NCBI GenBank assembly: GCA_026770585.1
Contig: MU646407.1
Span: 95,368-132,074, forward strand
Direction of reading: 5' to 3'
Length of the DNA stretch: 36,707 bases
Source of the DNA: Baffinella frigidus
Taxonomy: Eukaryota; Cryptophyceae; Cryptomonadales; Baffinellaceae
The translations under genes and the position numbers were made by a program. How positions within the stretch are numbered: position 1 is the stretch's first letter; the number at the start of each line of letters is the position of its first letter. The notes below the pieces were generated by a model. That model did not search any database. It was given only the letters and a program-made list of their open reading frames with translations, and was not told the origin of the DNA. Shown here one piece after another: positions 127 through 36,533 of the stretch.

Positions 127-794
127 CTGTTCTCGCGCGCTTGCGCCAGGCCCGCGGCACGGTCTGGGGCAAGGCCGCCGAGCACCAGCATCTCCGCACA
201 CTGCGCCTCCACCAGCGCCACCTGCTCACATCATCAATTCACAATCTCTTATTAGTGACTTTGGGTTCTCTTATTTGTAACTAGGGCTCCCTATTTCGAA
301 TCACGGTTTCCTAAGTACGAATCACGGTTTCCTGATTACCAGTAAGCGACCCCTAATTAGTAACCATGGAGCCCTAATCACTACGCAGGGGTCCATAAGT
401 CTCCTAGTAACTTACTAGCAATCCATACTTGGAAATCTTTCAGAGGCAGGGCGGGGGGGGGCACCAACCACATCCGGTTAGTCCGAATGTGTTCTGGGCA
501 CATGATTTGAGTCGGTGTGTATCACTGGAGCCACCTTGGTTGATACAGGGGTGACGCGAAAATGGGGGGGCACACCCTAATTACCTATTAGGGATCCCAA
601 AAAAGGGTCTTAAGGATCCCTAATTGGTAATTAGGGATCTATAGTAACTAGGAATCTATAACAACTAAGAATCTATAGCAACTAGGGATCTAAAATAACC
701 AAGAATCGGGAGGGAGGCGCGCACCACATCCGGAGGACCCTGGCCTCCGAGAACTTCGATCGCCTCCCTCATCTCCAGCCAGTTCCCGACCGCC
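127..794 (-). CDS. Phosphorylase exons 13-14, last in the window
   Basis: Exon 13 (794-728) encodes [18 protein letters not shown] then QGPPD. Exon 14 (221-127) encodes [18 protein letters not shown] and runs on to a GTAACC donor. The intron between them begins GTGGTGCGC, closely like the GTGGCGCTGG with which exon 14 begins. The exon 14 donor shows that the gene continues to the left of the window. Confidence 0.88.

Positions 795-36533: not shown

Follow-up and report, generated by a model that had tools for sequence, protein, structure and literature searches.

The analysed window is a stretch of 36,707 nucleotides from contig 105 of the assembly of Baffinella frigidus (382 Mb, 1364 contigs), a cryptophyte. 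Four gene loci lie in it, one more than had been counted in an earlier reading made from the letters alone (the sequence-only reading). The gene models were assembled manually, on the basis of open frames and splice-like limits. A thymidine/pyrimidine-nucleoside phosphorylase gene (TP) occupies 127..5238 on the minus strand, with 13 exons found (T1-T13) and 12 introns. The joined TP exons encode 291 amino acids identical to part of a B. frigidus protein named pyrimidine-nucleoside phosphorylase (P0001), and match PF00591 (3e-40) and PF02885 (9e-18) in Pfam. The gene for the PACS-1 cytosolic sorting protein (PACS, 5966..20242, plus strand) has 27 exons (P1-P27) and 26 introns and matches the Pfam families C2_PACS_N and Pacs-1. 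The initial PACS model shared 97% identity with the annotated PACS-1 protein of B. frigidus (P0121); once two corrections had been borrowed from the latter (GC as the donor of P6, and P25 as an additional exon), the joined exons give all 835 of its amino acids. For the unnamed gene X (26433..28614, minus strand), four exons were found from open frames and splice-like limits, the X3-X4 frame being provisional, and a Pfam search with X1-X3 returned no match. The fourth locus (ANK, 29244..36533, minus strand) comprises ankyrin-repeat exons A1-A5 and A7-A15; its A4-A7 region is partly modelled, A1-A4 and A7-A15 are open, and Ank_2 is matched at 3e-18 and 1.6e-26. TP and PACS are supported by independent annotation, ANK by open frames and Pfam, and gene X by open frames.

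Together the four models contain 54 introns, with uncertain limits in three (A4/A5, A5/A7 and X3/X4). Donors other than GT are implied by the reading frame at four exons: GC at P6 (10056-10070), A7 (32555-32565) and A14 (29569-29576), and an apparent GA at T5 (3380-3395). Those at P6 and T5 agree with the annotated proteins.

Read by eye, a further ankyrin-like coding stretch lies on the minus strand at 21250-22600. Paired heptamer arrays with common flanks are found at 22003-22085 and 25959-26043 (areas 21250-22600 and 25800-26050). Long imperfect palindromes span 1500-1745, 5023-5164 and 20384-20690, and close to the middle of the first lies an exon copy (1608-1639). In the intergenic segment 20384-20860, copies of a cctaggcataggc-type motif are nested in direct and inverted orientation; by eye, this motif was also seen in one filler of a kinase locus elsewhere in the genome (L054). 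Past the stop codon of gene X, 26257-26290 is a 34-nt copy (88%) of the final coding bases of that gene together with its stop region, an edge copy outside any intron.

Copies of exon edges in the adjacent introns

A Smith-Waterman search of the 54 introns against their adjacent exons (sense strand, score of at least 26) gave 50 matches. Two were dropped, a marginal X4 match at 26944-26961 and an A3 match at 35622-35634 (13 nt within another copy). The 48 that were kept, 6 of which sit in introns with uncertain limits (A4/A5, X3/X4), bear out the earlier estimate of more than 40; 26 derive from the downstream exon and 22 from the upstream exon, and 27 of the 54 introns hold at least one.

In PACS, where all copies are on the plus strand (identity in brackets), exon starts are copied ahead of P4 (7046..7070, 0.92; 7200..7263, 0.87), P5 (8529..8574, 0.94), P6 (9374..9403, 0.83; 9541..9596, 0.80; 9690..9732, 0.88; 9843..9892, 0.84), P7 (10436..10470, 0.89), P13 (12606..12637, 0.88; 12757..12794, 0.92; 12909..12945, 0.95), P14 (13277..13303, 0.93), P15 (14025..14055, 0.94), P19 (15828..15873, 0.87; 15960..16011, 0.75; 16218..16264, 0.79), P24 (18278..18328, 0.86) and P26 (19244..19261, from the copy search, without the acceptor AG). 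Exon ends are copied behind P6 (10148..10165, 0.89, with its GC donor), P7 (10773..10823, 0.78, with donor), P8 (11316..11372, 0.88, donor GT lost), P14 (13806..13851, 0.85), P16 (14797..14826 and 14946..14974, the homology of both running on into the intron), P19 (16593..16666, 0.80, with donor) and P25 (19092..19111, 0.95, without the donor GT).

The copies in the other three genes are on the minus strand. TP holds a copy of the T2 start (4864..4901, 0.82), donor-bearing copies of the ends of T3 (4273..4317, 0.89), T4 (3852..3925, with filler at 3926-4040 between exon and copy) and T9 (1608..1639, again with filler between), a decayed, near-complete copy of T5 (3637..3706, 0.77), a copy of T7 (2531..2562, 0.78) and one of the first 28 nt of T10 (1225..1252, 0.89), after which, by eye, more of the exon follows a deletion. 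In ANK, copied starts are those of A2 (36222..36275, 0.80), A3 (35354..35425, within a tandemly duplicated unit of 165 nt that also takes in intron), A4 (34896..34935, 0.90), A5 (33717..33742, 0.96) and A12 (30622..30643, 0.91). A further A4 copy covers exon positions 28-64 (34700..34736, 0.89), its start side seemingly deleted as judged by eye. Ends copied with their donor belong to A2 (donor GTCG; 35757..35838, with filler between exon and copy, and 35578..35641, 0.81), A4 (34279..34319, 0.95; 34070..34111, 0.74, homology running on into the intron; 33894..33913, 0.90), A11 (30808..30868, 0.90, with ~15 nt of intron homology) and A13 (29861..29922, 0.89). Gene X has two donor-bearing copies of the X3 end (27526..27608, 0.89; 27769..27848, 0.80).

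The chance test was made on the first gene models, with 53 introns. At a score of at least 34, an upstream-exon copy is present in 14 of 53 introns and a downstream-exon copy in 16 of 53. Antisense copies of the adjacent exons number 0 of 53 and 0 of 53 at this score, and none appears at 26 either. Non-adjacent exon-intron pairs reach 34 in 0 of 2915 sense and 1 of 2915 antisense comparisons, and 26 in 6 of 2915 in each orientation.

The copies are anchored at splice sites (38 of 49 tested). As the sequence-only reading had it, downstream-exon copies precede their exon, begin at its acceptor (no more than 3 nt off the exon start in 19 of 27) and break off inside it, the exon end being reached in 1 of 27; upstream-exon copies follow their exon and retain its donor side, with no more than 3 nt between the two ends in 19 of 22. 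From random placement, about 3 in each group would be expected, with maxima of 9 and 10 in 10000 draws. The splice dinucleotides are largely retained (AG in 23 of 25 copies, GT or GC in 18 of 21). It is conceivable that CAG|GT copies act as ratchet points in recursive splicing. Copies equally present in intergenic DNA, the outcome named beforehand as contrary to the pattern, are not what the window holds. Over 23754 intron bases and 7846 intergenic bases, local direct pairs (no more than 600 nt apart) number 41 exon-intron and 26 intron-intron vs 2 intergenic, with 1 exon-intergenic pair and 0 exon-exon pairs.

Functional alternative exons were considered as an identity for the copies and rejected, since 16 of 20 indels in them are not a multiple of 3 and break the frame. 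This rejection leaves unexplained an excess of silent differences: in 42 copies, copy-exon mismatches comprise 137 silent and 112 non-silent changes (55% silent, 137 of 249), where 27% is expected for a neutral copy and, by a rough estimate, ~42% if the exon also gains silent changes. The copies may be older than assumed or come from another allele; third-position mutation bias and other-allele origin are both candidate causes. A paralogue or second locus as the source was rejected for PACS, which is a single locus in the assembly; a genome search gave 22 exon matches, every one inside the window. Judged from the annotated proteins, which skip the copies, they are probably spliced out with the intron.

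Limits of the copies at the splice site

The 32 copies with at least 85% identity were used to compare intron-side homology with a 99% control. In 28 of the 32, no intron-side homology above that control is found, as plain tandem duplication would leave, in a comparison made weak at acceptors by their heptamer-like flanks (99% control score of 17 vs 8 on the donor side). The exceptions are A3, A11 and both P16 copies. At a 95% control, 8 of 32 copies extend into intron (2 of 17 downstream-exon and 6 of 15 upstream-exon copies). Downstream-exon copies have a median exon part of 37 nt and upstream-exon copies one of 45 nt, with median intron extensions of 3 and 4 nt. Five bounded cases, 86-95% identical within the exon, were followed into the adjoining 30 nt of intron, where identity is 40-63% (random 30-mers, 51%); in three of the five the value is 63%, over the random level.

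Faster decay of intron sequence does not simply produce this limit, because the intron parts of the true duplications are nearly as similar as their exon parts (88% vs 92% in A3, 88% vs 93% in P16). Duplications that include intron were seen at A3, P16, A4 (34070), in the P6 family, where the spacers are repeated too, and in parts of the kinase locus L056. The copies thus appear to fall into two classes, founding copies that stop at the splice site and tandem duplications that reach into intron.

Filler, heptamers and strand bias

The structure that recurs is filler lying between a complete exon and an edge copy of 18-83 nt. The filler is of several types: telomere-like heptamers, a dispersed element of ~130 nt, tetranucleotide arrays (as near A4) and DNA without any other genome match. 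When four fillers were searched genome-wide, one proved to be the high-copy element, the T9 filler had 13 matches, itself included, and the A2 and T4 fillers (the latter 3926-4040) gave no second match. Mixed filler of this kind favours repair-like capture over a single transposon.

The ~130-nt element has defined ends and at least 42 genome matches; a first look gave 3384 candidates, 40 of which were scored. In the window it lies at 3500..3632 (minus strand), where it separates exon T5 from its copy, in part at 4318..4382 (minus strand), between exon T3 and its copy, and at 1977-2086. Local duplications bracket the element at 8 of 31 places in the window and kinase loci, vs 113 of 3000 random placements (3.8%), and two of the three window copies are among the 8. 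The bracketing duplications measure 38, 41, 47, 61, 68, 70, 72 and 88 nt, so that a target-site duplication of fixed length, as looked for in introners and short transposable elements, is not seen at these 8 of 31 places. The element may be mobile, and it is possible that it represents an introner or MITE family of a cryptophyte.

Every break had been said to run into a heptamer array. In fact 19 of 47 do so and 28 of 47 meet none. Among downstream-exon breaks the heptamers at 14 of 26 are all C-rich (CCCTAAA on the sense strand), with TTTAGGG at 0 of 26; among upstream-exon breaks 5 of 21 meet them, 1 C-rich and 4 G-rich. The background in 1896 intron windows is 32% C-rich and 4% G-rich. A graded decay of the copies, also claimed, is inconsistent, the copy nearest the exon being the most similar in 4 of 9 multi-copy families. 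The repair scheme that had been drawn from these features holds in part. Repeated local re-copying of the edge, with other DNA between and heptamers as a common filler (14 of 26 vs 32%), is supported; telomerase-type addition to a broken end is not, as the polarity at the downstream-exon breaks is wrong.

The orientation of the heptamers follows transcription. On the sense strand, C-rich heptamers cover 4937 nt of intron in the window and G-rich heptamers 476 nt (~10:1), and of 40 kinase loci elsewhere 36 have a C-rich and 2 a G-rich excess. Heptamer-like sequence before the acceptor is C-rich in 37 of 54 introns and G-rich in 0; after the donor it is C-rich in 28 of 54 and G-rich in 1. CCCTAAA repeats contain neither GT nor AG, and TTTAGGG repeats contain both in each unit. 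Overall, introns hold 1071 GT on the sense vs 2043 on the antisense strand, and 1017 vs 1672 AG. Selection on splicing is the simplest reading of this bias, and it would seem that the repeats tolerated in an intron are determined by splicing. An orientation test by the pattern TTTAGGGTTTAGGG..CAGG (3798 + 3999 matches) was uninformative because TTCAGGG is itself a heptamer variant.

Intron length and intron birth

Intron length rises with copy number (Spearman 0.80, p = 4e-13), by ~199 nt per copy, and the median is 607 nt with copies and 208 nt without. Introns with more copies are longer; therefore, the window looks like a record of intron growth. Of the 27 introns that lack exon copies, nine consist of masked repeat over 85% or more of their length.

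Signatures of intron birth were sought at both intron ends. The intron start copies the start of the next exon in 2 of 54 introns at a score of 6 (expected 0.02), both of them rich in heptamers. At P20/P21, the start GTTGCGATTCG (17226..17236, plus strand) resembles the P21 start with one mismatch, in an intron that is 91% masked repeat; at A14/A15, the A15 start is duplicated as GCGGACCC (29569..29576, minus strand) beside a GC donor, in an intron that is 85% masked repeat. The intron end copies the end of the previous exon in 1 of 54 at the same score (expected 0.02), the acceptor-side case being P16/P17, where ACAACGTGGTGCAG (15352..15365, plus strand) resembles the P16 end. No signature reaches a score of 7 at either end of the 54 introns. 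All three are consistent with introns born when an insertion duplicated a proto-splice site. Duplication at birth is possible for the P13/P14 intron, whose start GTGATGCTCCTCTACCC (13184..13200, plus strand) resembles the P14 start at 12 of 17 ungapped positions by eye, below the score threshold.

Kinase exons elsewhere in the genome

Same-strand copies were found at 25 of 56 kinase segments taken from other parts of the genome in two sets. Set 1 comprises 40 of 78 kinase rows, hand-picked in rough table order before the flanks were seen; those picked have no internal stop and an open frame of up to ~450 amino acids, and at least three fitting rows were passed over (C1169:1738, C131:552829, C671:42375). 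In this set a same-strand copy lies within 2 kb in 22 of the 40 segments, which are not all independent as some loci partly overlap, and antisense copies number 0 in 80 tests. Set 2 comprises longer segments with 1.5-kb flanks, 16 of 30 further kinase loci, chosen for open frames of up to 350 amino acids. It gives 3 of 16, with 2 antisense matches in 32 tests (at 30-31); the strand was guessed, which leaves the comparison of direct with inverted copies unaffected. The pattern seems to be found more in short exons of intron-rich genes than in long open reading frames. A control against other kinase loci was uninformative in set 1: owing to the mutual similarity of kinases and the overlap between several of the loci, the best match was at least 30 for all 40 segments.

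Some of the bounded kinase pairs are highly similar (L064, 100% over 37 nt; L056, 97.4% over 77 nt; L054, 93.6% over 94 nt), and by eye two pairs include intron (L066, ~24 nt; L067, ~17 nt). GT is common to exon and copy at the right edge of 11 of 14 downstream copies (3.4 expected), and CAG at the left edge of 7 of 18 upstream copies (2.3 expected).

Discussion

The insertion of filler and the duplication of the exon edge are directly visible as structure; we infer that they arrived in one event. We propose, with a probability of roughly 0.55, that these introns grow, and now and then arise, through DNA-level insertions that duplicate the edge of an exon and are filtered by splicing. A staggered break or a template switch near the exon edge would be filled in, leaving the edge doubled around the filler. 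Such an event would survive only where the complete exon keeps a functional splice site, which lets the intron be removed together with the truncated copy and the filler; sequence that splicing ignores, such as CCCTAAA on the sense strand with neither GT nor AG, would survive best as filler. Where a heptamer insertion within an exon doubles a site beside GT or GC, a new intron could result outright, as may have occurred at P20/P21 and A14/A15. This proposal does not account for the position of one end of the duplication at the splice site. Fill-in and selection alone predict a variable reach into the intron, and mostly this is not what is found. An exon-bounded RNA:DNA hybrid of spliced RNA, cut at its edges, might fix that end, but this is a guess. 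A bolder extension, which we advance tentatively, is a repair or mobile process that acts at splice sites, with one point fixed at the exon-intron border and the other anywhere in the exon. Edges would then be re-copied repeatedly, introns would be born and grow by a DNA process guided by splicing, and the heptamers would be splice-silent stuffing.

Ordinary local tandem duplication, by unequal crossing-over or slippage, is the competing account that fares best, and as an explanation of the whole pattern it is doubtful rather than implausible. It supposes that purifying selection keeps the exons intact and that the intron part of each copy decays beyond recognition. The intron-including units listed above, the 165-nt unit at A3 foremost, are clear cases of it; direct pairs dominate both in the window (85 vs 22 inverted or palindromic) and at the 40 kinase loci (282 vs 33 inverted pairs and 62 palindromes), and selection would explain the lack of exon-exon pairs. 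Against it, 28 of 32 copies of at least 85% identity show no intron homology above the 99% control, yet true tandem units keep 88% identity in their intron part. Plain tandem duplication covers one class of copies only.

Introner-like mobile elements with a long target-site duplication across the splice site, and with the heptamers as a second, non-mobile filler, would be a special case of our proposal, so that the odds of the two overlap; taken by itself this version is unlikely. The ~130-nt element has the defined ends and, more often than by chance, the bracketing duplications that it calls for, but the duplication length varies, 23 of 31 elements are unbracketed, two other fillers have no second match, and many fillers are heptamers or tetranucleotide arrays.

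We give still less weight to exchange or conversion between haplotypes with diverged introns, by which a copy would come from the other allele and its homology would stop at the exon end. The silent excess among copy-exon differences is in line with such an origin, and the limit of the copies would fit a conserved splice consensus. However, a second locus was found in the assembly neither for PACS nor for the A2 filler, and the introns of true tandem units remain alignable even at 12% divergence.

Addition of heptamers by telomerase to broken exon ends, followed by joining to a re-copied edge, is highly improbable. Telomerase would add the strand opposite to CCCTAAA at that 3' end, and the downstream-exon ends show 14 C-rich vs 0 G-rich arrays among 26, with no heptamer at 28 of 47 breaks of either kind. 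In its favour, heptamers are a common filler, and mammalian genomes are known to carry interstitial telomeric sequence inserted at breaks (PMC7215372). Reverse-transcribed mRNA or splicing intermediates pasted back into the gene would place the limit at the splice site but can scarcely be credited, as the copies carry a few nucleotides of intron and 330 junction-by-intron tests gave 7 alignments over a spliced junction, 4 of them through masked (N) bases and, of the remaining 3, only that at P25/P26 looking possible on reading.

The origin and lengthening of introns is an old question, with few cases caught in the act. Here, 48 scars of differing age lie in the 54 introns of a single window, and kinase exons elsewhere show the same pattern; the size of the events, their filler, the strand bias and the boundary can thus be measured. 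The boundary at the splice site is predicted neither by tandem duplication, nor by transposon insertion with a fixed length, nor by end-joining. No account of the pattern, and none about the introns of Baffinella, was found among the titles and abstract beginnings listed in the searches, subscription papers and bioRxiv being mostly outside the scope of the search for the pattern.

Several known systems share parts of it. In templated insertions or filler DNA of the polymerase-theta type, short pieces of nearby DNA are copied into a repaired break, much as here; we know of no preference of that process for splice sites. Introners can carry target duplications that touch splice sites. As short dispersed sequences in genes, the introner elements of the dinoflagellate account (PMC11453091) are alike; here, in contrast, the filler is mixed, the duplications are 38-88 nt and the element is one filler among several. 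Interstitial telomeric sequences at double-strand breaks are likewise telomere-type repeats whose target is sometimes duplicated. In a study of such loci (PMC7215372), direct target duplication is given for 3 of 66 horse loci, and the human sequences lie in no exon and to 31% in introns, compatible with random insertion. In contrast, the present assembly holds 104837 exact TTTAGGGTTTAGGG matches (overlaps counted), and its heptamers are strongly oriented with transcription. Direct repeats near intron splice sites (PMC11782384) are exon-intron border repeats that were also read as insertion scars; those are pairs of 4-30 bp flanking introns, whereas here exon pieces of 18-83 nt occur in up to four copies per edge per intron. 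Finally, intron gain by tandem duplication of AGGT shares with a minority of the introns here, P20/P21 and A14/A15 and, on the acceptor side, P16/P17, the doubling of an exon piece that supplies splice sites and leaves the coding sequence unchanged. In that system the copies adjoin without unrelated DNA; here filler separates them, except in the 165-nt unit at A3, most events enlarge existing introns, several rounds occur per intron, and a splice site that already exists mostly forms the limit of the duplicated piece.
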